Source: a virus. From it: a stretch of DNA of 40,929 bases. Shown piece by piece: positions 135 to 37,240 of the stretch. A model generated the notes under the pieces. It saw only the letters and a program-made list of their open reading frames with translations. It was not told the DNA's origin and searched no databases. The stretch's first letter is position 1. Every line of letters begins with the position of its first letter. Where the stretch lies: positions 1-40,929 of IMG/VR virus record IMGVR_UViG_3300017741_000015; one strand, 5' to 3'. The translations under genes were made by a program, and so were the position numbers.

Positions 135-383
135 CTACTTGCCACAAGGTTCACCTGTAGCTACATTTATCCAGTTTTCTTTATCAAACCAGTCTTTTAA
201 AGTTGCTCCTTTTTTACGAGCACCTTTTATATTACTTTTAGAACTACGTCTGTATTTACCTCTTGAAGCAGCATTCTTTTTGGCATTAACAACCTTTTGT
301 CTTTCTTCTTTAGACATTGATCTTACTTTTGAAGCAGGTAAACAAACTTTTCTAGTGCCGCCTCCTTTTATTTTATTTGCCAT
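135..383 (-). CDS. Small basic phage protein, 82 aa
   Basis: Function unknown. The 82-aa product is strongly basic, with Lys/Arg spread along its length. It has one Cys near each end (C14 and C80), a KGARKKGATLKDWF stretch in the second half and a PCGK tail. The K-rich region followed by a Trp-containing 'LKDWF..ENW' segment resembles small uncharacterised proteins I recall from marine phages, but I cannot assign a family. It is the last gene of the late block, and its ATG overlaps the end of the PAP2 gene by 11 bp. It belongs to the set of basic two-Cys proteins in this window (896-1045, 33795-34070, 34070-34186). A nucleic-acid-binding or virion-packaging role is inference only. Confidence 0.75.
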   Translation of the reverse strand: MANKIKGGGTRKVCLPASKVRSMSKEERQKVVNAKKNAASRGKYRRSSKSNIKGARKKGATLKDWFDKENWINVATGEPCGK

Positions 384-894
384 TTTTTAAATATTTATAC
401 ATTTCTAAACCTAGTTGTTTTCCTAGTTTTGAATCTGACTTATAATGAGCTTTAGCTATATTCCTACTATATGATATGTCTTCTGCTTTCTTATTTAATT
501 CTTTAGACTTTTCAGGATATTTATCTTTTAAAACTTCAGCTAATAAATAACCTTGAGCAGAATGTCCTGAAGGATAAGAAGGTGTTTTCATAGACTTTAA
601 TTCAACATCTTTTATTTTAATTCCAAAACTTTTAGCAAGTTGCTTAGGCCTAGGTCTATTAAAATAATTTTTTAATTTTTTAATTACAGGTAAAGATGCT
701 TGAGATATTTTTGATATTTCTTCATCATTGCCAACTATGTCAACAAAGCACTTATCAACGTCATCATTTTCTCTAACAAAACCCTCGTCATCTCTTAACT
801 TACTTATTTCTTTTAACTCTTTAAAAGTTTCTAATGAGTTATCTTTAGGCGGTTTTTTGTTTTTAAATTTTTCTATGTTAAAATTACTAAACAT
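373..894 (-). CDS. PAP2-superfamily acid phosphatase
   Basis: All three signature motifs of the PAP2 / class A acid phosphatase / vanadium haloperoxidase superfamily are visible: KX6RP (K73, R80, P81), PSGH (108-111) and SRX5HXXXD (S143, R144, H150, D154). In this family the last His is the nucleophile and the PSGH His the acid/base, hydrolysing phosphomonoesters or lipid phosphates. The 173-aa length fits a minimal soluble domain. I see no signal peptide or membrane segment, unlike secreted class A enzymes and membrane lipid phosphatases. It lies between a 49-aa microprotein and the last late gene, with short overlaps or spacing, so it is probably expressed with the virion genes. Possible roles are virion-borne action at the envelope or phosphate scavenging; neither is shown. 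Confidence 0.88.
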   Translation of the reverse strand: MFSNFNIEKFKNKKPPKDNSLETFKELKEISKLRDDEGFVRENDDVDKCFVDIVGNDEEISKISQASLPVIKKLKNYFNRPRPKQLAKSFGIKIKDVELKSMKTPSYPSGHSAQGYLLAEVLKDKYPEKSKELNKKAEDISYSRNIAKAHYKSDSKLGKQLGLEMYKYLKNGK

Positions 895-1046: not shown

Positions 1047-4000
1047 TTATTTATATCTTTTTTCAATTGCTTTTCTTAATATTTCAGCTTTTCTAGCTGC
1101 TTTCTCTTCTCTAGTTTCAGGTTTGTCTGACTCTAGAGGTTGAAAGTTTTTATTGTTTTTATTCTGTAATCTTAATATTTCTTTAACTCTTGATTCCTCA
1201 TTTTTAAATCTTTTAATTTCATAAGATTTTAAACCAAATTGTTTTAATATAGATTTTTGTTCCCAAGCTTTATAACCTTTAGGATCTTTTATTAAGTAAT
1301 CTAAAGATTCTTGATCTTTCTGAGCTTTAGTTTCTAAAGTCCACTTAGGCCAACCACTAGCTAACGCTATCTTTTGCCATGTTTCTGTATCTTCATCCAT
1401 TATTGAAGACAAGTTATCGTACTTTAATAATATTCTATCTAAAGGTATGTTAGTAGTAGCAGATACAACTTTCGCAGAAGCTAAAAAAGCTGGGTTTGTC
1501 ATGCTAAAACCTTCATCCATCATCTGTTGTCTTCTTTTTTTAGAATCAAACTGCCATGTTGCTTGTCTTAACCTAGATATTTTAGAACCTATAGGCGGTG
1601 AAAATTGTAGTAGCTTATATATTGAATCAACATACTCAGGTCTTTTTCTTCCAGATCTTTCGTATATGTCTAATAAAAAGTTTTTAACTACAGATACAGC
1701 AGCACCAGCAACACCTAATCCTCTTAACAAAGAGTCTGCCATGCCATTAGCTACGTCAAGAGCTTTTTCATTTTTCTTTTCATCTTCTTCGTCATCACCA
1801 AACCCTAAAGCAAACACAGCTTGTTGCAGTGCATTGAATATAATATTTTGAACTACACCGTAGTATATTATTTTACTTACATTAGACTTGCTATCACCTC
1901 TACCAGCCGTTAAGTCTTGAATCGCTCTTTTCTGTAATCTAGCATATTGCATAGGTGTGTTAGCAAACATAAGTATTAATCTACCATAATCACTTGACTG
2001 CTGTTGAGATATTTTATCAGGTCTACTAGACTGTTGGTTTTCTTCAGTTTTTTCCATAAACTCTTCCATAGCTTTTGCTTTGGCATCTGCTTCTGTAAAA
2101 CCTTTTTTCATTAAATCTTTTATTCTGTTTCTATAAAACGTAGCACCACCAGTAGCAATAGCAAAGCTATCTGCATATTGAGTTGGTGCATAACCTTTAG
2201 AAAGTATGTAATTTAAAACTCCTTTAGCTTTGTTCTTACTAGTGTTTGCAGCATCTGCTATTTCAGATTCTGTTATATTTATCTTTAGTCCATTACGTCT
2301 GTCTTTTAAAAAATCAGAGTTCATCAATGTCATAAAATCTTTCCAGTATTGAGGTTGATTAGCAAATGCAGCGCCAGCTTTTAAAGGATTATTAAAATCC
2401 CAGTTTAAAAAGTTTATAGAAGATATTGTTTGTAATATAGCTGATCTAGTGTTAAAGAACATTATAGCAGCGTTAGATCCATTAATATAATTTAATATTC
2501 TATTACTTAATCTATTACCTTCTTGTAGTCTGTTACTACCTGACTTCATACGTTTAAGTATGTTTTCCATAGCTTCTCTATATCTAGGTCCGTAAGCTGC
2601 TTCAAGCTTGTTTAAATTCTTTTCGCTAAATATAATATCTACATTTTCTTGCCACTCTTGTAAGTATTCAGGTCTTTTAGTTTCTTTCAAACCTCTCATT
2701 AAGTCAGTAGTTATATTACCAACTAACCAGTCTCTTAATGGAGAAGGATATGGGCTTTTGTTTATCATTACTAATTGATCAGCAAAGCTTTTTAAAGTAG
2801 GATTATTTTCTACAATAGAGTTTAATTCTTTAGTATCTGTTTTTGATAATCCAGGTATTTCTAAACCTTGCTTGTTCCATAAGTAAACTCTTACTGCTTG
2901 TTCATTGGTAAAACCATCTACTGCTTCTTTATTTAAGTCTTTAGGTACGTCTAAATCTTTTTTAAGCTTTTTAAAATCTTCCATTAGATTTAATCTAGCT
3001 GTTTGTAGATTTAATTGGCCTCTTGAAAATGGATCAAATAAATTCTTTTTAAACCAAGCCAGTTGTGAATCACCTAGTTTACCCTTACTTAACAATGGAT
3101 ATATTAAACCTGTAAAATCCTCAGCAGAGTAAGGTATAAAAAATTGAAACTTATCTCTTTTAGAACCTCTAACTTCTGCTTTTGCTTTAGAGTATTCTTT
3201 TTGAGATGCAATACCTGTTTTTTGCTCAATTATATCATTAAAATCTAAGTTTAAATCTTTAGCTTGGCTAGCTTGCTGAACTTCAGACTTAACATCCACA
3301 ACGTCTAATACTTTTTTAACTGGACCTTCTTGCTTTTTTCTTGGTTTTGTTATTTCAAAATCATAACCACTATTTTCTGGTGTTATAAAATCATTACTTT
3401 CCCATACATCTGTTTCCCAGCCTAATCTTTCAGCAACATTGTTCATTAAAGTAGTATATAGTTTAACTCTACTTGGTTCTGATTTTTTAGCAGAAAATTC
3501 AATTTTATTTATGTTTTCGTTTTGACCTATAGCATTTAACAAACCATTGTAAACAGTTTTAATAACCTTAACAGAATCACCAGTGCCAGTAATATCTTGT
3601 CTACCATCAAGATCAAACTCTACGTCAAAGCTTCCCTGACTATCTCTAGCGTCTAAATTAAAATTATATTTTTTATCACCTATATTAAAAGTGGTTTTCA
3701 TATTACCTGCATCGTCAGTTTCCCATTTTAAGGAAGTAGACTCTTTGCTAAACTTTATTTCATTTTTCTTTACTAGTTGAGTCTTAGATTTAACATCTAA
3801 AAGATTCATTGACTCTTTAACAGCAGCTACGTTAGCTGCAGCATCATCAGCAAAGTAAAAATCATTATAACCTTCAGCTGCTTTTCCTATGATCCAATTA
3901 GCTTTAGCTTCTCCAGTAGAATTACCTAAACCTGTTATATTTTTTAATGGTATTTCTAAACCTTGAGACTTTAAAAACTCATAAATAGCAGGTGCAGCTT

Positions 4001-7000
4001 GTGGAGCTCTTGCTGTTAAAACAAAAACATCATCTGTTCCTCTAGCATCTTTAATCTTTTGAGCTATATCAAATAAAGGTCCCCTAGCACCATCAGTTAC
4101 ATTATTAAAGTCATCAAAATTTAAATCATAACCTTGGTTTTTTAAATCAAAACCTTCAGCTGCAAATTCTTCTGCATTTAACTCTCTAACTTCACCATCT
4201 GGCGATGTAGCTAAAACTATATTATTACTAGTAGCTAGTGTGTCATCAAAATCAAACACCCTAATCTTTTTAACAGGAGCATTAGGATCACGAGCTATTC
4301 TTAAAGCTTTATCTATTGTAGCAGCTTTACTTAAAACTTCCTCCATAGACATGTCTTCATTAACCTCTAAAACACCGGAGCTTTTTAATAAATCAACATC
4401 TATATCTTTTGCTTGGCTTGCAGATTTTTCCAATATCTTTACTTTTTTATCAAATATTTCTTTCTGTAGTATCTGTTTGTAAGCTTTTTCTCCGTTTATA
4501 GAATATATGTTATTACTTATTCCAGTTTGATTCTTTAAAAACTTAGTAAGTCTTAATATTCCTTCTGGACTTGTTAAAGCTATTTTTGGACCACCTTCTA
4601 TTCCTTTAGCATCTATAAGATCCGCAACGTAATTAGGTCCAAAAAACTGAGTATGGCCAGATAGAATTTTATCTAATGAAGCATCTGTTAAAGTTCCTTT
4701 TAACATGCCTTGAAAAAGCTCTGTCATAGTTATAGAATTAGGAACTAAGTGTTCTCCTTTAGTTATTAAATCTACATAAGCAGAAGGTTTTGTACCAAAC
4801 GCTGCTTGAACTTTAGCTTCTTCTAAAGTATATTTTTTCTTACCAGTTTTTTTATTAATAGCGTTTATATTTTGTTTTAATCTTATATCATATCTATCTT
4901 TAAACTCTGGAAACTCGTCTATAAATTCTTGAATAGAAGCATCTTGTTGTTCTGTATCTAACTTAAGGAAGTTTTCTTTACTAAGTCTTTTGTTTTTAAA
5001 GCTTTCTATATCTTGATTACCGTCTATTAAATATAAATAATCAAAACCACTTAAAGCTCTTAAACCTTTAACAGCACCTGTTTGTAATTGAAAAAATTGA
5101 AACAACTGTAGTGGTGTTATTTTTTTACCATTTTGATAATCTTCCTGTATTTCTAACATTAAAGTTTTAAATAACTCTATGTTAGCTATATTTGCGTCTT
5201 TTATTTTTTGTTCTTTTTCTTTTAGTAAAGAAAGTTTTTCTTCTACACTACCAGTAGAAAGCATTGGTTTTAATATATTTTTTACCTTAGTAAAATCTTT
5301 ATTCATAGGTATAACGTCGCTAGTATTAACGTTATTTTCTTTTTTAAATTTAGATGATCTTGCTTTTACATACTCCATGAAGTATGCTCCCATACTGCCA
5401 TCTTCCTTTTGCTTAGCAGGATCTAACAACCTATTACTAAAACCTAAAAATTCTAAACTTTCATTAAAAGAACCTATTAAACCTGAGTCTACTATTTTAA
5501 CAACTCTTTGTGCAAAATTGTTCATACTTTTTGCAGCTGCTTTATTTATAGTTCTTTTTCCTTTTATCTTGCTAGTAATTATATGATCTTTATTATTTAT
5601 TTGTTTTAAAAGCTTTTCATCTGCTTCTTCTAAAAACTTTTTATTTACCTTAACAAACTCACCACCTTGCTCTAGCATAGGATCTTCTTCTAGCAGCATA
5701 TCTATAGCCTTAATAACATTATCATCTACACCTTCTATTGCTTCTTGAAATTCAGGTTTATAATTACCATCTTCGTCTCTATAGCCAGTGGTGTAAGCTA
5801 TGTCTACCAGCTCGTTTGCTTTTAACATAAAAGCTGATAAATCATCTGGCTCTAAAACTATATCTTTAGCAAAACTATAATTTTCACCTCTACCTAAATC
5901 TCTAGCTATAAATGCAATCTCTGCCTCTACATTATCTCTACCAAACTTTTCAGCTCTTAATTCAGCTAGTGTAGTAGGTACATAACCTTCAGTACCTGGT
6001 TGTCTACCAAAGCTATCTTCTACTTGAGAATCTAACACTTGTCTTAAAGCATCTTCTGTAAATTCAATAGCTGCTACTTTAGCTAATGAGTTTCTTCTAG
6101 CGTCAGGTCTTGCTGTGTTAATAAAGAAATTAGTTAAATCTTTAGTTGTTAAATTTGGTATTAATTGTTTTTTAGGATTACCAGCATATGGATCTTTAAC
6201 TCTTGAGCCTTCTGATCTAGACTCCTCAGTCAATGTTCTAGCTTGCTTACCTGTCTTTGGATCTATCACTGGCTCAGTAAGTCCATTTAATCTTTTGTTC
6301 AATGTTGTTTGCTGAGCTTTAGCTAAGATAGCCGGTACATAAGTTTCAACAAAGTTTTTATATTTAGCACTTGTTGGCGTACCCATTATCTTTTTAATAT
6401 CAGTTTCTAAATCAGCAATAGCTGACTTTCTAATAGCCTTTAAAAATGCTCCTGAGCTTACGTCTCCTAATCTAGTTCCTAGTGTTCTCTTGGTCTTCTC
6501 TATAACTTTATTATAAAAATCTCCTCCTTCTTCCATCCCTAAGTCATCACCTAGTTCTAAAAAACTTTGTCTTAATGATTGCTTTTCTTCTTTACTAAAA
6601 TCTTGCTTTGGCTTTTCAGACAACTGCTCTTCTGACTGAACGCCTAATAAAGGTGCTACAATTTCTGTGGCTCTATAAAAATCTCTACGTCTTGAGTCTC
6701 CTATAAATTGCCCAAGCGTAACTGCATCTTTATATTCTTTAGACTTTTTATAATAATCTTCTACTAAACCTACTACACCTCTTTTAGAATACAATATATC
6801 AGAAACTATATCGTCTATCTCTACAGCACCTTCAACACTTTGGCCTGTTTCAAAATCTCTAGTTCCTGCTACTTTAGGATTATCTTTAACAGCTGTTTCA
6901 CCTATTTTAAATTTACCACTAGTAACATATCTTCTTACGTCGTCTTCAAATAAACTAGCTAATTCAGCTGCTGATGCGTTTCTTTGTTGTGCTTGTTCTA

Positions 7001-10000
7001 TTTCTAAATCTTTAGCTTGACTAACAGCTTCACTAGCTTCTTCTCTTGCCACTACTCTTTCTTCATCAAACTCTAAACCTGCAGCATCTAAATCATCAGA
7101 TATTTCTATACCTTGTTCTGCAGCATTTCTTTGAGCTCTAGTAAGTCTTCCTTTATTTATAGACTTGTTGTAATCTGCTATAAAGTTTAAAATATCATTA
7201 GCATTATTAAACTCTATTTTACCTAAGCCAGGTACATTTTGTAAAAATCTTCTACTAGCGTTACGTAAGTTATCTCCTAGTTTTTTGTCTTTAGCTATTA
7301 AACCAAGGTCAACAAACTCACTAAATAAAGTAATTAGTTCTTCAGCTTCTTTGGCTTCACTTACTCTACCATCTCTTTTGTATTCGTTAAGTGTATTATT
7401 AAGTGATTTAATTAACGCATTATTTTTAAGAGATGGATTTTGACTTAATACTTTTAATCTATCTTTAATAACGTTAGCCATTGCATAAACAGCTTCAGGA
7501 TTGGTTCTTAAAGTATTTTTAAGAAACTTATGTAATATTTCATGAGCACCAGTAAAGTAACCAACACCATCAGTCATTTTTTCAGTATTAACTAAAGCTA
7601 TTTCTTTGCCATCTATATTAACACTAAGGCCTCTACCATCTGCTAAATCAGGATCAAGTCCATTTTCTTCTAAAAACGCTCTCATTTCTTCTTCGTTTTC
7701 AAAAGTTTTAAATTCATCTATTACATCGTCAGATAATTGTTTAGATACTTTTTTACTTTTATTTATTTTATCTTCAGTTTTACCTATGTTGTTAAGCCTT
7801 TGATTTATTTCTTTTATTCTTCCTTGTTGTGGCTTAGTAAGTTCAGAATCTAAACCCTCTATTTCTTTTAGTAGCTCTGATTTCTCAACCATTAAATCAA
7901 GAGATTCTGCTCTAGCTCTTTTACTAAAACTACCAGGAACTTTTAATCCAGCATTTCTAATAGTAGATATTGTCTCTACTTTATCATGATAATCTTGTTC
8001 AGAAATATTACCAGCGTCTTTTTGTTTTTTAAGATCAGCTAAAACTGTTTTGTAAAACATTTCTGTTTGAGCTAGATTACCTTTAGGATTAAACTCTTTA
8101 GCAACTTTCATTGCTGTAGTTCTTAACTCTGTTCTAGTTTGACTAGCTACTGCTCCACCAAAAGGCAATACAGTGCCTATAGTTACACCAGCTAAAAACT
8201 CTTCCCAATTGTTTTCACCATTTACATACTTAAATAAATCTCCTTGTTTAGCACCTGTATTTAAAGCTTGTAAAGTACTTTGACCAACCTCTGTTAAACC
8301 TTCTATTAATGAGTTAGGTGTTTGTTTTACAACACCTTTACCCATATCTTTTATGATTTTTTTAATATCACCTCTAAATAATGATTTAACTCCAGACTTG
8401 TATGATACACCCATGCTTTTAAAAAAAGCTTTCATAGTTGTTTCAGCTCCTAATTTTTCTAGTCTAGACATTAAAGCAGCCGTAGCTAAATCTTGAGCTA
8501 CATTATCATACTCTCCACTAGCTATAGCTTCACCTAATGCTTCTTCAGTTATACCATCTGGATATTTTTCTTTATCAGCTAGCATGCCTTCTTTAACGCC
8601 TTCTATATAGTTTTCACCATAAAACTGAGCCGTAACCATAGCTCCACCACCTAAAGTTAAAGCACCAGCAACAGGTGCTAGTACACCTCCAGATGCAAAT
8701 GTTGCTACCGCACCTGCAGAAGCGGCGGCCATTTGAGGTATAGAACCACCTAGACCGACCATAATATCTCTAAAGCTTATACCATCAGAAAACTTAGCTT
8801 GCTCAGCTAAAGCTCTATATTCTTCAAACTCTTGCATCTGAGATATATTTTCGCTTAGACTTCTAGATTCTTGTTGAAGATCAATTTCTAATTGCTCTCT
8901 TAATTCTTTTATAGTTCCAGTTAATTCAGGTCTACCATCTATTCTTCCAGATCCTCTTTCACCTATTTTTATTTTAACCTCATCGTCATCACCTTTGCCT
9001 TCAGCTGTTAGTTTTTCAAGTTGAGCAAGACCATCTTTAGTGTTTTTAACACGCATACCATCTACTTGAGCACCAATAACATCCATTGAATTACTAGTTA
9101 AACCTTGAGTTGATACAGCTAAGTTTTCTATACCAGCAATAACATCAGACATTATAGATCCTTTACCATAATAAGCTTGACCAAAGTCTGAAAGACTATA
9201 AACTAAGCTTTCACTTCTAGCTACTTGCTTTTGATCTGCTGTATTTATAATACCAAGCATTTCACTAATTTTATCTGACTGTTGCATTACAACAGGGTCA
9301 TTCTGCGTAGACTCATCTATAAGTCCAGCATAATAATCATTAACTCTTTTTTGGGCTAAATCAACACCTGCTCTAGTAGTAAGATCATAAACATTTTTTT
9401 CTATAAGTTGTTGTTTAAATAACTCAACTTTTTCTTCAAGGTTTTTAATATAAAAATTTCTTCTAGCATCAACAAGTGGGTCAGAGTTTAAAGACTCGCT
9501 AAATATATTTGTATAGTCTTCTTCTTTATTATTGCTTTCTTTAATTTTTTGTTGTAATTCATTAACTAATTTCTTGTTATTAGAATATTCATTTTCAGAC
9601 TCTACAGTTGACTCGTTTAATAAAAATGGATTTGATATATCAGAAAAACCTTCGTTTACAAGATCTATAGTTCCTGGGGTTTGTAATTTATTAACCATAT
9701 CAAGTCTTTCCTGCCCGCTTAAGCCTGGAAAATTTAATATATCTTGAATTTTTTTATTATATTCTTTTAACTGCTGATCATAAGATTTTATTTTTTCATC
9801 TCTAACTTGCACTTCTTTTTCACTTGGAGTTACGTTTTGAATAGAAGTTATTGGATCATAATCTAAAGCAGGGTTTATGCTTTCAGGTATATTTAATGGA
9901 GCTTGATCAACAGAAGTTCCGTCAGGCACAGATTCAGCAACCAAAGGAGCTTCACCAACTTTCACTATTATTTCAGAATTTCTTTTAATTAATTCTTCTA

Positions 10001-10073
10001 ACGTTATATTTAGTTCCTTAGCTCTAGCAATTAAAGCTTCTTCACTAACAGGTACTCCATTTATTTCGTACAT
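1047..10073 (-). CDS. Giant polyvalent internal-virion-type protein, 3008 aa, with zincin and HAD phosphatase domains
   Basis: This is the largest gene in the window. The N-terminus begins MYEINGVPVSEEALIARA. Hydrophobic Ala/Gly-rich segments lie near residues 440-480 and 625-640. HEILH (H844, E845, H848) in a GAHEILHKF context is a zincin HExxH metallopeptidase motif. Residues about 1935-2100 form a HAD phosphatase: DFDDT (D1941, D1943, T1945), VLTAR with T2020, and YFADD with D2076/D2077. A mixed alpha/beta stretch follows to about 2200. Residues about 2535-2880 carry a region I recall from large polyvalent proteins of aquatic phages (FFNTRSAILQT, SSRPDKISQQQSS, FANTPMQYARLQKRA). Its place after gp14-like genes matches T7 gp15/gp16 ejection proteins. 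Entry into the host with DNA and enzyme activity are inferences. Confidence 0.85.
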   Translation of the reverse strand: MYEINGVPVSEEALIARAKELNITLEELIKRNSEIIVKVGEAPLVAESVPDGTSVDQAPLNIPESINPALDYDPITSIQNVTPSEKEVQVRDEKIKSYDQQLKEYNKKIQDILNFPGLSGQERLDMVNKLQTPGTIDLVNEGFSDISNPFLLNESTVESENEYSNNKKLVNELQQKIKESNNKEEDYTNIFSESLNSDPLVDARRNFYIKNLEEKVELFKQQLIEKNVYDLTTRAGVDLAQKRVNDYYAGLIDESTQNDPVVMQQSDKISEMLGIINTADQKQVARSESLVYSLSDFGQAYYGKGSIMSDVIAGIENLAVSTQGLTSNSMDVIGAQVDGMRVKNTKDGLAQLEKLTAEGKGDDDEVKIKIGERGSGRIDGRPELTGTIKELREQLEIDLQQESRSLSENISQMQEFEEYRALAEQAKFSDGISFRDIMVGLGGSIPQMAAASAGAVATFASGGVLAPVAGALTLGGGAMVTAQFYGENYIEGVKEGMLADKEKYPDGITEEALGEAIASGEYDNVAQDLATAALMSRLEKLGAETTMKAFFKSMGVSYKSGVKSLFRGDIKKIIKDMGKGVVKQTPNSLIEGLTEVGQSTLQALNTGAKQGDLFKYVNGENNWEEFLAGVTIGTVLPFGGAVASQTRTELRTTAMKVAKEFNPKGNLAQTEMFYKTVLADLKKQKDAGNISEQDYHDKVETISTIRNAGLKVPGSFSKRARAESLDLMVEKSELLKEIEGLDSELTKPQQGRIKEINQRLNNIGKTEDKINKSKKVSKQLSDDVIDEFKTFENEEEMRAFLEENGLDPDLADGRGLSVNIDGKEIALVNTEKMTDGVGYFTGAHEILHKFLKNTLRTNPEAVYAMANVIKDRLKVLSQNPSLKNNALIKSLNNTLNEYKRDGRVSEAKEAEELITLFSEFVDLGLIAKDKKLGDNLRNASRRFLQNVPGLGKIEFNNANDILNFIADYNKSINKGRLTRAQRNAAEQGIEISDDLDAAGLEFDEERVVAREEASEAVSQAKDLEIEQAQQRNASAAELASLFEDDVRRYVTSGKFKIGETAVKDNPKVAGTRDFETGQSVEGAVEIDDIVSDILYSKRGVVGLVEDYYKKSKEYKDAVTLGQFIGDSRRRDFYRATEIVAPLLGVQSEEQLSEKPKQDFSKEEKQSLRQSFLELGDDLGMEEGGDFYNKVIEKTKRTLGTRLGDVSSGAFLKAIRKSAIADLETDIKKIMGTPTSAKYKNFVETYVPAILAKAQQTTLNKRLNGLTEPVIDPKTGKQARTLTEESRSEGSRVKDPYAGNPKKQLIPNLTTKDLTNFFINTARPDARRNSLAKVAAIEFTEDALRQVLDSQVEDSFGRQPGTEGYVPTTLAELRAEKFGRDNVEAEIAFIARDLGRGENYSFAKDIVLEPDDLSAFMLKANELVDIAYTTGYRDEDGNYKPEFQEAIEGVDDNVIKAIDMLLEEDPMLEQGGEFVKVNKKFLEEADEKLLKQINNKDHIITSKIKGKRTINKAAAKSMNNFAQRVVKIVDSGLIGSFNESLEFLGFSNRLLDPAKQKEDGSMGAYFMEYVKARSSKFKKENNVNTSDVIPMNKDFTKVKNILKPMLSTGSVEEKLSLLKEKEQKIKDANIANIELFKTLMLEIQEDYQNGKKITPLQLFQFFQLQTGAVKGLRALSGFDYLYLIDGNQDIESFKNKRLSKENFLKLDTEQQDASIQEFIDEFPEFKDRYDIRLKQNINAINKKTGKKKYTLEEAKVQAAFGTKPSAYVDLITKGEHLVPNSITMTELFQGMLKGTLTDASLDKILSGHTQFFGPNYVADLIDAKGIEGGPKIALTSPEGILRLTKFLKNQTGISNNIYSINGEKAYKQILQKEIFDKKVKILEKSASQAKDIDVDLLKSSGVLEVNEDMSMEEVLSKAATIDKALRIARDPNAPVKKIRVFDFDDTLATSNNIVLATSPDGEVRELNAEEFAAEGFDLKNQGYDLNFDDFNNVTDGARGPLFDIAQKIKDARGTDDVFVLTARAPQAAPAIYEFLKSQGLEIPLKNITGLGNSTGEAKANWIIGKAAEGYNDFYFADDAAANVAAVKESMNLLDVKSKTQLVKKNEIKFSKESTSLKWETDDAGNMKTTFNIGDKKYNFNLDARDSQGSFDVEFDLDGRQDITGTGDSVKVIKTVYNGLLNAIGQNENINKIEFSAKKSEPSRVKLYTTLMNNVAERLGWETDVWESNDFITPENSGYDFEITKPRKKQEGPVKKVLDVVDVKSEVQQASQAKDLNLDFNDIIEQKTGIASQKEYSKAKAEVRGSKRDKFQFFIPYSAEDFTGLIYPLLSKGKLGDSQLAWFKKNLFDPFSRGQLNLQTARLNLMEDFKKLKKDLDVPKDLNKEAVDGFTNEQAVRVYLWNKQGLEIPGLSKTDTKELNSIVENNPTLKSFADQLVMINKSPYPSPLRDWLVGNITTDLMRGLKETKRPEYLQEWQENVDIIFSEKNLNKLEAAYGPRYREAMENILKRMKSGSNRLQEGNRLSNRILNYINGSNAAIMFFNTRSAILQTISSINFLNWDFNNPLKAGAAFANQPQYWKDFMTLMNSDFLKDRRNGLKINITESEIADAANTSKNKAKGVLNYILSKGYAPTQYADSFAIATGGATFYRNRIKDLMKKGFTEADAKAKAMEEFMEKTEENQQSSRPDKISQQQSSDYGRLILMFANTPMQYARLQKRAIQDLTAGRGDSKSNVSKIIYYGVVQNIIFNALQQAVFALGFGDDEEDEKKNEKALDVANGMADSLLRGLGVAGAAVSVVKNFLLDIYERSGRKRPEYVDSIYKLLQFSPPIGSKISRLRQATWQFDSKKRRQQMMDEGFSMTNPAFLASAKVVSATTNIPLDRILLKYDNLSSIMDEDTETWQKIALASGWPKWTLETKAQKDQESLDYLIKDPKGYKAWEQKSILKQFGLKSYEIKRFKNEESRVKEILRLQNKNNKNFQPLESDKPETREEKAARKAEILRKAIEKRYK

Positions 10074-10074
10074 A

Positions 10075-11874
10075 TTATTTTAGTTCTTGCGTAGCGTTTC
10101 TTTGTTCTAATATAGCCATTAAAGCTTTATATTCTGCATCATTTAAATATGATTTTTTATAACCTTCTTTTGCTTGTACATCTGGTCTTAAATAAAACAT
10201 TAATTTTTTATCTTGCATTAAAAATTGTTTTTCAATATCTGTTAATTTATCTAATCCGTTTTTAACTTTCCATTTTTCATAAGAATCGCCATCAGGAAAA
10301 TTACCAAAACCACCTTTGCCTTCTGCCATTTCTTTTGCTTTTTGTTCTTCTAGTTTTTGCTGTTGAGCATACGCGGGATAAAGCTTATTCATAGACATAA
10401 TAGCTTGATTATTATCTTTATTATTACCTCCAATAGATTTTTGTATTTGCTGAGCTAATTTAGTAGAAGACGCAGGGTCTTTAGGGTCATAAGTTGCTAT
10501 GTTGGTAACCTTATCAACAACTTCCCCTCCTGTTCCTTCATCAAGGCTATAATCTTTATGTACTAAAGTAACTGTACCATCTTTATTAACAACTACATCA
10601 TCAACAGTTTTACCATTAACTACATTGTTTATAATTAAATTTCTATTATCAACAGGGTTTTTGAAAAAGTCATATACATTTTCTACAGTTTCCATGTAGT
10701 AAGGAGTGCCATCTTCGTTTTCCTCTTTAGGATTATAAACTTCTTTTTTAACAAACTTTAAAGTATTATCCATATTAGCATTATCATTATAAGCTTTTTC
10801 TGATAAATAAGTTCTCATTATATCGTCTTGCTCTGCTGTTACTTTTTCAATTTCTTCTGGAGACATATCACCAGCAAACTCATGCCAAGGGTCTTCATAT
10901 AAAGAAATGTCATAACCTTTTTCAGTAGCTATTCTTTGTATTTCTTCATCAGGTATTTCATCTTGCCAAACTCTTCGCATAGAGCTATCGTTAGACATTA
11001 GAGAAGTTATACCTTGGCTTTTAGATAGTTCTTCTATAGCTTCTGGTTTTTTCTCTTGCGTTATAGTTTTAAACGTATACACTTGACCTTCTTCAAGCCC
11101 AGGATATGGCAAACCTGTCATAGGATTTATATCGCCTTTTTTAACTTTAATGTAATCTACAAACTTACCATCTAAACTATCTGGCTCTATAGCTTTATTA
11201 AAAACCGCTGTAAGAGGAGAAGATAAATTCACTTTTCTTTCATACAATTTTTTCTCTGCTGCATTGTTTGCTAGTATTTCGTTACCATTTAACATTGCTG
11301 CTTCTGATATAATATTTCCTTCTTCATCTTTTTGCTCTGGACTAAAGTAATAAAGTTGACCATCTTTTTCTACTATTTGCACATCACCACCTTCATGCAT
11401 TCTTTGTAACATAACTTTATTTTGAGTTGATCCTACAGAAGAAACATTATCACTATTAGAGTCTTCATTAAACATCTTAGATTCGCTAGCTAAATAAGCT
11501 ACTTGTTGTTTAAATTGTGGTACTAGTCCATTTATTTTAGCTAAAGCTTGATTACCCTCTTGTCTACCTATTATACCATCTTGCATGGCGTTTTTAATTT
11601 TAAAATATTCGTCTACTTTACTATTCCAAAAACTAAGTATATTTTGATCCATCATAGCATTTCCACTATCACCAAACTCATTTACTTTAGAATAAAGACT
11701 TTGCATTAATACATCATCTTTTTCTTGAATTTCTTGGTTTAGCTTTTTTTGAGCAGCTACACCTTTTCTTATCTCTGCAGTAGTTGTTGCTATTTGATTT
11801 GTTAAGGCATTGCCGCCTTTAATAAAAGCATCAAACTCTCTATTTATAGTTCTTTGTGGATTTTTAAAACTCAT
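10075..11874 (-). CDS. Putative internal virion/structural protein, 599 aa
   Basis: No enzymatic motif is visible. The N-terminal 120 residues are Gln/Ala/Lys-rich and look helical or coiled-coil, then a charged mixed region full of Asp/Asn/Glu follows. Residues about 90-125 contain YFKIKNAMQDGIIGRQEGN and NGLVPQFKQQVAYLA, a segment I recall from uncharacterised marine phage virion proteins. It lies between the gp14-like ejection protein and the giant polyvalent protein, with one base before the latter, the position of T7 gp15-type internal core proteins. Role in the ejection apparatus is inferred from position and composition. The ATG at 11874 is preceded by an AT-rich leader. Confidence 0.7.
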   Translation of the reverse strand: MSFKNPQRTINREFDAFIKGGNALTNQIATTTAEIRKGVAAQKKLNQEIQEKDDVLMQSLYSKVNEFGDSGNAMMDQNILSFWNSKVDEYFKIKNAMQDGIIGRQEGNQALAKINGLVPQFKQQVAYLASESKMFNEDSNSDNVSSVGSTQNKVMLQRMHEGGDVQIVEKDGQLYYFSPEQKDEEGNIISEAAMLNGNEILANNAAEKKLYERKVNLSSPLTAVFNKAIEPDSLDGKFVDYIKVKKGDINPMTGLPYPGLEEGQVYTFKTITQEKKPEAIEELSKSQGITSLMSNDSSMRRVWQDEIPDEEIQRIATEKGYDISLYEDPWHEFAGDMSPEEIEKVTAEQDDIMRTYLSEKAYNDNANMDNTLKFVKKEVYNPKEENEDGTPYYMETVENVYDFFKNPVDNRNLIINNVVNGKTVDDVVVNKDGTVTLVHKDYSLDEGTGGEVVDKVTNIATYDPKDPASSTKLAQQIQKSIGGNNKDNNQAIMSMNKLYPAYAQQQKLEEQKAKEMAEGKGGFGNFPDGDSYEKWKVKNGLDKLTDIEKQFLMQDKKLMFYLRPDVQAKEGYKKSYLNDAEYKALMAILEQRNATQELK

Positions 11875-11939: not shown

Positions 11940-12638
11940 CTACGAAGGCGTTTTTGTACCAAACCCTCCCGCTATCATACCAACGCCACTAGCTATTGAA
12001 TTGCCTATACCTACTATAGCTTGCGTTCTTGCCGCTCTAGCATCTGCTTGATTTTGATTTGCGTTGTCTAAAAGTTTTGCTGTTCTATCCATTTGTGCTT
12101 CGTGGAAATTAATAGCATCTTGCTGTTCCATCATGTCTCCTTGAGCTTTCATTTCGTCTAGTCTTTGAGCTCCTTGAGCTTTTTGGGTTTGTATTTGAGC
12201 TTCACCTTCAGCAGCCATTGCTTTGTTTTGTACTTCTTGAGCTTGTATACTAGCTGCAATACCTCTTTTACTTTGTAGTGCCATTTGAGCTAAGGCGGTG
12301 GCACCACCTGCAGCTTGACCAGTTTCCATCATTACATCTAAACTATTCGCTAAGGCTTGGTCAGCTTGATCAGCTTGTATTTTAAAAGCCTCTGTAGCAA
12401 CAGTTAAATTAGCATAAGGATTATCCAAATTTTCAAAATGATTAGTCATGTTTTCATAAGGATTTTTAAATTCTGGTCTTGTTTCTACCATAGCATCTAA
12501 AGCAGCTTGCTGCTGAGCTGCAATACTTCCTTGAGCTCTACCTTCTTCTTTTGCTCTTTTAGCGGCTATTGCATTAGTAGTTGCACCTGCTGCTATTGCT
12601 ACACCTCCTGCTATTAATAAACTTGTTGCTACTGCCAT
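11940..12638 (-). CDS. T7 gp14-like internal virion (ejection) protein, 232 aa
   Basis: The N-terminus has a hydrophobic Ala/Gly segment (residues about 4-26, LLIAGGVAIAAGATTNAIAA). A long Ala/Gln-rich helical region runs through the middle, and a second Gly/Ile hydrophobic stretch lies near the C-terminus (IVGIGNSIASGVGMIAGGF). This layout is typical of the small T7 gp14-type ejection proteins, which are expelled into the cell envelope with the DNA. Neighbours agree: a GNAT-fold protein upstream (compare T7 gp13) and the 599- and 3008-aa proteins downstream. Assignment rests on composition and order, because sequence identity in this family is low. The 65 bp to the next gene is AT-rich and shows nothing else. 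Confidence 0.7.
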   Translation of the reverse strand: MAVATSLLIAGGVAIAAGATTNAIAAKRAKEEGRAQGSIAAQQQAALDAMVETRPEFKNPYENMTNHFENLDNPYANLTVATEAFKIQADQADQALANSLDVMMETGQAAGGATALAQMALQSKRGIAASIQAQEVQNKAMAAEGEAQIQTQKAQGAQRLDEMKAQGDMMEQQDAINFHEAQMDRTAKLLDNANQNQADARAARTQAIVGIGNSIASGVGMIAGGFGTKTPS

Positions 12639-12643
12639 ATTTT

Positions 12644-13045
12644 TTATTTTAAAATTTTAATTATTTCATGAGACGGCTTGCTATCTACATGCCACCCTAA
12701 TTCTTTATGTTTATCTATAAGTGCTTTTGTTCTTCCTATTGAAAATATATATTTATAACCCCAGTCTTTTATTATATACTCTATAGTGTTTATAAGACAT
12801 TTTATAGCCATATCTCTGTCATCTTCTCTATATTCAGGATTAGATATTATCCATTCTAATAAAACTGCCTTAGAGTTAGTTATATAAATAAATCCAGCAA
12901 CTATCATAGTACCTTCTTTTTCTATCACAAAACCACCTTTACCATTATCTGGTAAAAAGTCTTTTTCTATTGGTGGCCATTTCCATGCTTTCCACCATTC
13001 TACTAGAATCTCATAATCAGATTCTGTTAATTTTCTTATATTCAT
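12644..13045 (-). CDS. GNAT-fold protein, T7 gp13-like position, 133 aa
   Basis: The protein starts MNIRKLTESDYEILVEWWKAW, the beta-alpha start of many GNAT acetyltransferases. A GGFVIEKEGTMIVAGFIYI hairpin, a LLEWIISNPEYR strand/turn, a long helix and a C-terminal YIFSIGRTKALIDKHKELGW segment follow, as in the acetyl-CoA fold. The usual R/Q-x-x-G-x-G/A loop is degenerate (the local sequence is PEYREDDRD), so catalytic activity is doubtful. Podoviruses carry a GNAT-fold protein here (T7 gp13) needed for particle assembly, which fits the position just upstream of a gp14-like gene. Fold assignment is moderate; structural rather than enzymatic use is inferred. Confidence 0.65.
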   Translation of the reverse strand: MNIRKLTESDYEILVEWWKAWKWPPIEKDFLPDNGKGGFVIEKEGTMIVAGFIYITNSKAVLLEWIISNPEYREDDRDMAIKCLINTIEYIIKDWGYKYIFSIGRTKALIDKHKELGWHVDSKPSHEIIKILK

Positions 13046-35311: not shown

Positions 35312-37240
35312 TTACCTATTAAAACCCCTCATTGTTTTAGCTAGGTTTTTTCTTTTTTTAGTTGTATTACTATCTCCAGTTTTTATTTCTAGTTTGCTTA
35401 AAGGTATTTTTTCTCCTTTAGGTACATTTAATTCCTCTCTTAATGCTCCTTTTTTTAGTGATTTAAAATCTATTTTAGGAAATGAAGATCTACTAGTTGC
35501 ATACATTGGCATGGCCCCATCACCTTCCATAGTGTTTGATTGTGGAGTATTGAAGCTACTGTCTGTATTAGCATTCATACCTGTGGGTTGTGGTGGTGCG
35601 TATAGTTCACCTGAAGACATAGCTTTATTGTTAAACTGCATATCTCTTTGTATACCTCTTGCTGGTACTGATCCAGCAGACAAGCCTGGTAAAACATTAT
35701 TAGTAAGCTTACCTGTATCTTGTCCTTTACCGGCTCTATCACCTTTAGGTTGAGCAGCTAAATTTGAAGCATCAAATGGGTTTAAAGCTCCAGCTCCTTC
35801 TTGGTTACTTGCACCATAACCATATGTTTTGTTATCTTCTGAAGATTTATCAAGTCCCACTACTTCATTAGCAGTAGTATTAAGTGAACCTGTGTTTCCA
35901 CCTCCATTTCCAATTAATACACCTGTGCTTCCACCAATACCTCCTGTTCCTGTACCGCCTGTGCTTCCACCTCCAGTTTTAACACCTGCATTAGTGCCAC
36001 TACCTGCACCTGTACCTGTGCCTGTTCCTGTACTGCCTGTACTGCCTGTACTGCCTGATCCTACTGTTACTGCACCTGAATTAGCGACACTACCTGTTCC
36101 TGTACTATTTCCTGTTCCTGTACTATTTCCTGTTCCTGAATTAGCGACACTACTATTTCCTGTTTCTGTACTATTTTCTGTTCCTGTATTTGCATCTGTA
36201 CCTGTTCCTGTACCTACGTTTGTACTATTTCCTGTACCCACGCTTGTGTTATTCCCCGCACCTGTACCCGCACCTGTGCCTGTGCCCGTGCCTGTGCCTG
36301 TACCTGTACCTGTACCTGCGCCTGTGACTCCACTTCCGCGAAGCGCACCATTTGTTATTACATTTAAAGGACTATCTGAAACCATAGGAAATGCAGAACC
36401 TTTTCTACTTACCATATTAAAACCTCTTCCTAGAGGGTTATTGATAGCATTAAATTTTCTGTCATCCATTAAGTTATTCATTTCATTTAAATCATCGTTT
36501 TGCTCTTGTTGAGTGTATAAATTAGCAACTTTTGTTTTTGTTGGTTTTTTAAATGGAGCTTTACCTGCGCCACCGTATGTAAGAATTCCAACGTCTGTAA
36601 TCTTCATTCGATCCATTGGAAGATTTTCTTTTTGTGATTTATCCATCATCTGGCTAAACTTACCTTGCTTACCTTGTTTATCCATTATGCGAACATTATG
36701 AGCTTGATTTAACATGTTTTGAGATAATGGTTTTTCTTTTTTTACTGTAGGCGGTTGTGGAGCTGTAGGTCCCATTACTCCACTTCTTAAATCTTCTTTA
36801 TTTATTCTTTTACGTTTAGCTTCTTTTCTAAATTTAGCTTCATTTTTAATAGTGTTAAAAGCTTCTGTAGCTTGCTTTTTTTCTTCTGCTGTTTGATACT
36901 TAGCTCTTAAGTTTTTAGCTTGTCTAGCGTCTTTTAAAGAAGTTTTAAATGCTTTTTCTTCTGCTTTTACTTCTAGTTTTCTTTTTTGAGCTTCGTTTTT
37001 TATAGCGCTAGGTGTTGAAGGATTCCCTGTACTTTTATTAATTTTATCTAATATTCCTTCGTTTACCTTGCCTTGATTAGCTCCTTCTTTATCTGACTCT
37101 TCAACAATAGTACTACCATCTGCCGTTTTATTATATATAGACGAAAGATCCGGCATTTTAAAATCTACAGGATTATAATTATTTTTAGTTTTGTTTGGAT
37201 TCCTAAAGTTTCCAAATGGACTTTTTTGTTTATATGGCAT
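35312..37240 (-). CDS. Low-complexity 642-aa protein with Gly/Thr linker
   Basis: Function unknown. It starts [20 protein letters not shown], sharing the K-x-KSP-(F/Y) opening with the 433-aa protein. Residues about 80-150 are a Lys/Glu/Ala coiled coil ([20 protein letters not shown]). About 151-300 is mixed and Met/Asn-rich. Residues about 303-455 are an almost pure Gly/Thr/Ser/Asn tract, coded by hexamer-like repeats. The last 180 residues return to mixed sequence with [20 protein letters not shown] and a basic C-terminus. No Cys. It may be a virion protein with a flexible linker or a fibre. It overlaps the winged-helix gene by 11 bp. Confidence 0.7.
35878..36334 (-). repeat. Hexamer-type tandem repeat inside the 642-aa gene
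   Basis: On the plus strand the unit is CCTGTR (minus ACAGGY), nearly uninterrupted at about 36259-36326 and interspersed with 12-18-bp variants (for example TATTTCCTGTTCCTG) down to about 35880. It codes Gly-Thr pairs and keeps frame because the unit is 6 bp. Such tracts change copy number by slippage, so the linker may be length-variable. Confidence 0.85.

Follow-up and report, generated by a model that had tools for sequence, protein, structure and literature searches.

A giant phage protein with predicted zincin, HAD phosphatase and GNAT-fold domains and recurring motifs at its domain junctions

Introduction

Polyvalent proteins of phages carry several disparate enzyme domains on one chain, among them zincin metallopeptidases with an HExxH motif plus a downstream glutamate, and both their delivery with the virion and their processing have been predicted (Iyer et al. 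2017, PMC5512222). Processing by the embedded zincins was proposed in the same study, with indirect evidence only, from phage P1 DdrB. Here I describe a protein of this kind, encoded by the virus record IMGVR_UViG_3300017741_000015 (40,929 bases, 33% GC), the whole of which is called the window hereafter. The gene occupies 1047..10073 and encodes 3008 amino acids from an ATG start. This length agrees with an earlier note on the same DNA, and the strand is the minus strand (10073→1047): a plus-strand reading is full of stops and was ruled out. All window genes described below likewise lie on the minus strand.

Two further described systems invite comparison. N4 vRNAP (gp50), which is carried in the virion, is another giant in which a zincin-like domain occurs; there it lies in the C-terminal region, whereas the zincin of the present giant lies in the N-terminal third; a T7-like RNA polymerase domain found no match in the window protein, and one relative gave a weak match to RPOL_N (E 0.008). 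T7 gp15 and gp16 resemble the giant in genome location and in presumed entry with the DNA. The earlier note had drawn this parallel to the T7 ejection set from gene position, and the position does hold, with two smaller proteins ahead of the giant where the virion module ends; sequence searches of Pfam, PHROGs and PDB gave no match to gp15/16, and no lytic transglycosylase domain was detected.

Computation places a zincin, a HAD phosphatase and a GNAT-fold domain ahead of a conserved helical C-terminal domain, with short recurring motifs at the junctions. The overall explanation that I favour, with moderate confidence, is a polyvalent virion protein in the sense of Iyer et al. (2017) with an unusual enzyme set, a helical C-terminal domain and motif-marked junctions.

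Results

Domain architecture

The zincin motif HEILH, which the earlier note had placed at residues 844-848 (7530..7544), sits exactly there, within a gluzincin-type metallopeptidase domain predicted at about residues 787-935 (7269..7715). The chance expectation of one HExxH in the giant is 0.001, because it holds only 6 histidines in its 3008 residues. In an alignment of 96 sequences with a mean identity of 12%, the only invariant columns of the region are H844, E845, H848 and E912, a gluzincin signature; the sequences had been chosen for having HExxH, and it is therefore E912 (7338..7340), the predicted third zinc ligand and present in 96 of 96, that provides independent evidence. In the AlphaFold2 model, at a mean predicted local distance difference test (pLDDT) of 90.2, a beta sheet precedes the predicted zinc-binding and catalytic HExxH helix; this helix follows a beta hairpin, and a helix further along the chain bears E912. 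Its order of elements, strand-helix-strand-strand-helix(HExxH)-helix-helix-helix(E), is the topology described for polyvalent metallopeptidases (PMC5512222). VIA matches included lethal-factor-type zincins and residues 2157-2350 of N4 vRNAP gp50 (Z 5.3), all with a weak Z of 5-6. I regard an active-type zincin fold as very probable.

The HAD phosphatase domain spans residues 1933-2105 (3759..4277), and its fold is, on conservation and the predicted structure, close to certain. The motif residues D1941, D1943, T2020 and D2076/D2077 listed in the earlier note proved exact in position, the active-site set is invariant, and the likewise invariant R2022 (of LTAR) and K2057 are consistent with HAD motifs II and III, so that a DxDxT motif, a Thr/Ser motif II, the lysine and a DD motif IV are combined with a Rossmann-like predicted fold. 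Pfam gave weak matches to DUF2608/HAD. The closest fold to this part of a second AlphaFold2 model (residues 1890-2935, pLDDT 78) was T4 polynucleotide kinase 3'-phosphatase (VIA Z 12.4 over 129 residues at 2.9 Å). The alignment starts with model residue 44 on T4 residue 157, a register inferred from the range ends, which puts D1941 on T4 Asp165; this residue I take to be the phosphatase nucleophile. The outcome that the earlier note had named as fatal to its proposal, a HEILH within a non-zincin fold and HAD aspartates lying apart, did not occur in the AlphaFold2 predictions as judged by fold and topology.

In nine relatives (L029, L021, L032, L038, L041, L043, L047, L071 and L251) a P-loop kinase of about 200 residues lies inside the HAD domain, between motif I and the LTAR of motif II (AAA_33 E 1e-14, Zeta_toxin E 1e-10; residues 1494-1830 of the open reading frame L029:8561). 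T4 Pnkp differs in that its kinase is N-terminal to the HAD domain and not nested in it, and the window protein differs further, as no P-loop kinase of the nested type was found in it and it does not combine kinase and phosphatase as PNKP does. The nested kinases make a role at nucleic-acid ends plausible for the HAD domain. By analogy with the 3'-phosphatase of T4 Pnkp, the HAD domain would most likely remove phosphate from nucleic-acid ends or nucleotides; that nucleic-acid ends are its actual substrate is a tentative suggestion, on the doubtful side.

The third enzyme-like domain, overlooked in the earlier note, comprises residues 2111-2246 (3336..3743), to which both Foldseek (probability 1.00, E 0.012) and VIA (Z about 9) assign a GNAT (acetyltransferase) fold. 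It is an insertion found in the window protein and a few relatives and absent from most, and it may act as an acetyltransferase. In one relative, L042, residues 2210-2640 hold two GNAT-type modules in tandem, with IKFSLNTKRDLKWK before each.

The all-helical C-terminal domain (residues 2275-2935, 1269..3251) is the most conserved block of the family, and a BFVD search with its predicted fold found other large polyvalent proteins of phages (E about 1e-13), a similarity that extends the likeness to the proteins of PMC5512222 and bears out the polyvalent-type C-terminus claimed in the earlier note. LPD38-type domains were expected here, and no Pfam model matched; nor did any Pfam LPD domain match elsewhere in the window protein. 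Scans of the whole protein with Pfam, NCBIfam and PHROGs gave nothing usable, and sequence searches of PDB with the zincin, C-terminal and middle regions found no relative. In L078 two open reading frames (2409 and 698 aa) take the place of the single giant gene, so that the conserved C-terminal domain has a reading frame to itself.

A further pair of residues, E1774-H1775 (4749..4754), lies in an EH(xxP) context in the middle region (1020-1886), about 170 residues before the HAD domain. All 52 sequences of an alignment with a mean identity of 11% have H1775, and the pair is a possible further active site. The hydrophobic stretches mentioned in the earlier note are present, as an Ala/Gly-rich segment at residues 448-482 (8628..8732; KD19 peak 1.6) and a second weak one at residues 625-644 (8142..8201; Kyte-Doolittle peak 1.6). 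They are borderline and no general feature of the family: a segment exceeding 1.6 ahead of HExxH occurs in only 25 of 155 relatives, where such segments cluster 250-600 residues before the motif.

Distribution and conservation of the family

A first scan of IMG/VR yielded 79 loci with relatives, and a search with a C-terminal profile gave at least 581 confirmed stretches. Among 162 distinct complete relatives of 2113-4686 residues, HExxH occurs exactly once in 154, with HExxxH in two and EExxH in a group of six; the HAD profile matched 141. Conservation is uneven along the chain: the identity of relatives to the window protein, in bins of 50 residues, is about 8-26% over the first 1,800 residues and 40-72% over most bins of the HAD and C-terminal domains. 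Bacterial and archaeal assemblies contained 20 loci of the giant family, many of them in Bacteroidota bins; where the bin is Woesearchaeota or Aliivibrio, a virus contig was probably binned in error. No clear member was found among 50,697 phage records, where the single weak match was the giant of Gundel_1 (21.5% identity, E 3e-3).

Recurring motifs at the domain junctions

Short repeated motifs, also overlooked in the earlier note, mark the junctions of the window protein. SQAKD occurs three times, as SQAKDL after the zincin (residues 1018-1023, 7005..7022), SQAKDI before the HAD domain (1886-1891, 4401..4418) and SQAKDL before the C-terminal domain (2269-2274, 3252..3269). The variant SFAKDI lies in the middle region (1400-1405, 5859..5876), and a KFS-type motif, KFSKES, precedes the GNAT-fold domain in a linker with pLDDT below 50 (2107-2112, 3738..3755). 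Relatives repeat versions of their own, such as LASKDL three times in L074, ASKNL in L076, AMFSLNL in L103, LNTSEKM in L121 and KFSKSLN in L024. The tripeptide [KR]FS alone peaks in relatives at HExxH+450..600, the position that SFAKDI holds in the window protein, and at HAD+140..180.

The recurrence is specific to the individual protein. In 20% of 117 non-redundant proteins, the junction before the C-terminal domain matched its own protein better than did 95% of foreign junctions, compared with 0-6% for control windows taken from elsewhere in the C-terminal domain or at random from the N-terminal part. The boundary zones had at first been picked from the strongest repeats, and the effect was therefore re-tested on 75 held-out proteins, in which 40 best self-matches fell into four boundary zones; when junctions were swapped, the number was 16 +/- 3 and never exceeded 26 over 200 draws. 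Identical residues of the repeats are encoded by different codons in 44% of cases, about as often as for unrelated codons, which argues for a constraint on the protein and makes recent copying unlikely.

Open reading frames neighbouring the giant in the same loci showed no enrichment of the junction motif, although portal, scaffold and capsid genes lie mostly outside those loci, and a general prohead-protease site was left without support. Counts of KFS motifs in the giant proteins of cultured relatives were not enriched either.

Genome context

Read along the minus strand, the genes run from groEL and terminase through portal, probable scaffold (assigned by its position), probable capsid (virion structural protein) and tail/virion proteins to a 232-aa protein, a 599-aa protein, the giant gene and a PAP2 phosphatase. 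The 599-aa protein (10075..11874), directly upstream of the giant and syntenic with phi38:1 gp100, is a candidate second internal or ejection protein; the 232-aa protein (11940..12638), which has a hydrophobic N-terminus and an Ala/Gln-rich helix, is by position a candidate third.

Every portal match with a known host belongs to a phage that infects Flavobacteriia (Flavobacterium elemo, Maribacter Panino, Cellulophaga, Tenacibaculum), and the best identity, up to 49%, is to an unassigned podovirus. In syntenic cultured flavobacterial phages, too, the virion module ends or nearly ends with a gene for a giant, namely phi38:1 gp101, Gundel_1 gp74, elemo gp72, Panino CDS0069, phi19:3 gp129 and a 3859-aa protein of MW202828, most of which are annotated as 'structural protein'. 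HExxH occurs in the giants of Gundel_1 and elemo and twice in that of MW202828, and no match to the HAD or C-terminal profile was found in the giants at this position in cultured phages. The synteny suggests that the window's giant, too, is a virion protein, which I regard as likely. The source is best explained as a podovirus of marine Bacteroidetes with uncultured hosts, and the giant as its virion-module polyvalent protein.

Among the other genes, a PAP2-superfamily acid phosphatase (373-894, Pfam E 3.5e-7, above the cut-off) lies directly downstream of the giant. A 133-aa protein (12644-13045) looks by eye like a stand-alone GNAT acetyltransferase; it had no Pfam match and matches phrog_17252, of unknown function. 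A 642-aa open reading frame (35312-37240) contains a long low-complexity repeat, with DNA repeat families D1-D3 at 35970-36334.

Discussion

The junction motifs are the strongest evidence in the sequence for processing of the giant, and processing sites are their simplest reading. In the proposed sequence of events, the C-terminal domain would anchor or package the giant in the particle, the junction motifs would be cleaved, with the giant's own zincin as the probable protease, and the freed pieces, the HAD domain in particular, would enter the host with the DNA. These steps differ in strength. Cleavage at the junctions is somewhat favoured by the motif data, while the embedded zincin as the responsible protease is a tentative assignment. 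The complete proposal, comparable to the polyproteins of eukaryotic RNA viruses, is a self-cutting virion polyprotein in which an embedded zincin would cleave at lineage-specific punctuation motifs and interchangeable enzymes (a phosphatase that heals nucleic-acid ends, with a kinase nested in it or not, and an acetyltransferase) would reach the host as separate proteins; taken as a whole it is speculative, and rather unlikely to be right in every part.

Several observations weigh against the favoured explanation. For the zincin, Foldseek found nothing significant in PDB, with no E below 0.47, and together with VIA scores of just Z 5-6 this makes the fold match supportive but weak. The six relatives with EExxH where others have HExxH (L048, L151, L158, L160, L259 and L264) possibly have an inactivated or altered metal site. 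The HAD profile was unmatched in 21 of the 162 relatives, and the junction motifs covary with the zincin no more than with the HAD domain (partial correlation 0.14 vs 0.15, partial Mantel). On this ground the junction motif shows no tie peculiar to the zincin sequence, and the covariation does not single out a protease. Finally, N4 vRNAP has a metallopeptidase domain and is packaged uncleaved (PMC5512222).

This last precedent lends weight to an alternative in which the giant stays uncut, its motifs either give the chain flexible hinges or bind a chaperone, the portal or DNA, and its zincin attacks host proteins after injection. Metallopeptidases of polyvalent proteins may indeed be effectors (PMC5512222), and the AlphaFold2 model has two long linkers of low confidence that contain or adjoin sites 2107 and 2269, as expected of hinges. 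A plain hinge, however, needs no sequence that recurs within a protein and changes in concert between proteins, and I consider the uncut giant unlikely, if still a serious contender. The even covariation with zincin and HAD domain would suit cleavage by a separate phage or host protease, with some other target for the zincin, and a precedent exists in DarA of phage P1, for which a prohead protease distinct from DarA does the cutting (PMC12810830). The unenriched neighbouring reading frames, within the limit on gene coverage given above, speak against such an enzyme, which likewise seems unlikely here.

The motifs might also be leftovers of module shuffling, in which modules recombine together with their linkers and no protease is involved. 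The GNAT modules do bring a KFS-type linker with them, twice in L042, but the codon differences at identical residues argue against recent copying and the sites keep to fixed boundaries, which makes this account quite improbable. A channel protein of the T7 gp15/16 type, whose enzyme-like domains would be structural relics, has the place after two smaller proteins and the weak hydrophobic segments in its favour, but it is very improbable given that active-site residues are the most conserved in otherwise variable regions and that no ejection protein matched in sequence.

Compared with Iyer et al., processing by the zincin was already proposed there, whereas the HAD domain in the enzyme set and the recurring junction motifs appear to be new. 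Neither 'phosphatase' nor 'haloacid' is found in the text of PMC5512222, and the HAD domain is therefore not among the domains discussed there; no description of recurring lineage-specific junction motifs was met in what was read.

The giant family is common in viral metagenomes, although the 50,697 phage records contain no clear member. With predicted cleavage sites, more than 100 natural variants and a covariation signal within the protein, it makes the zincin-processing idea of Iyer et al. directly testable. It also extends the range of enzymes that a phage may carry into the cell by a PNKP-like HAD domain, in which a kinase is sometimes nested, and delivery of this domain, with or without the kinase, would fit the mending of nucleic-acid ends that host defences have broken.

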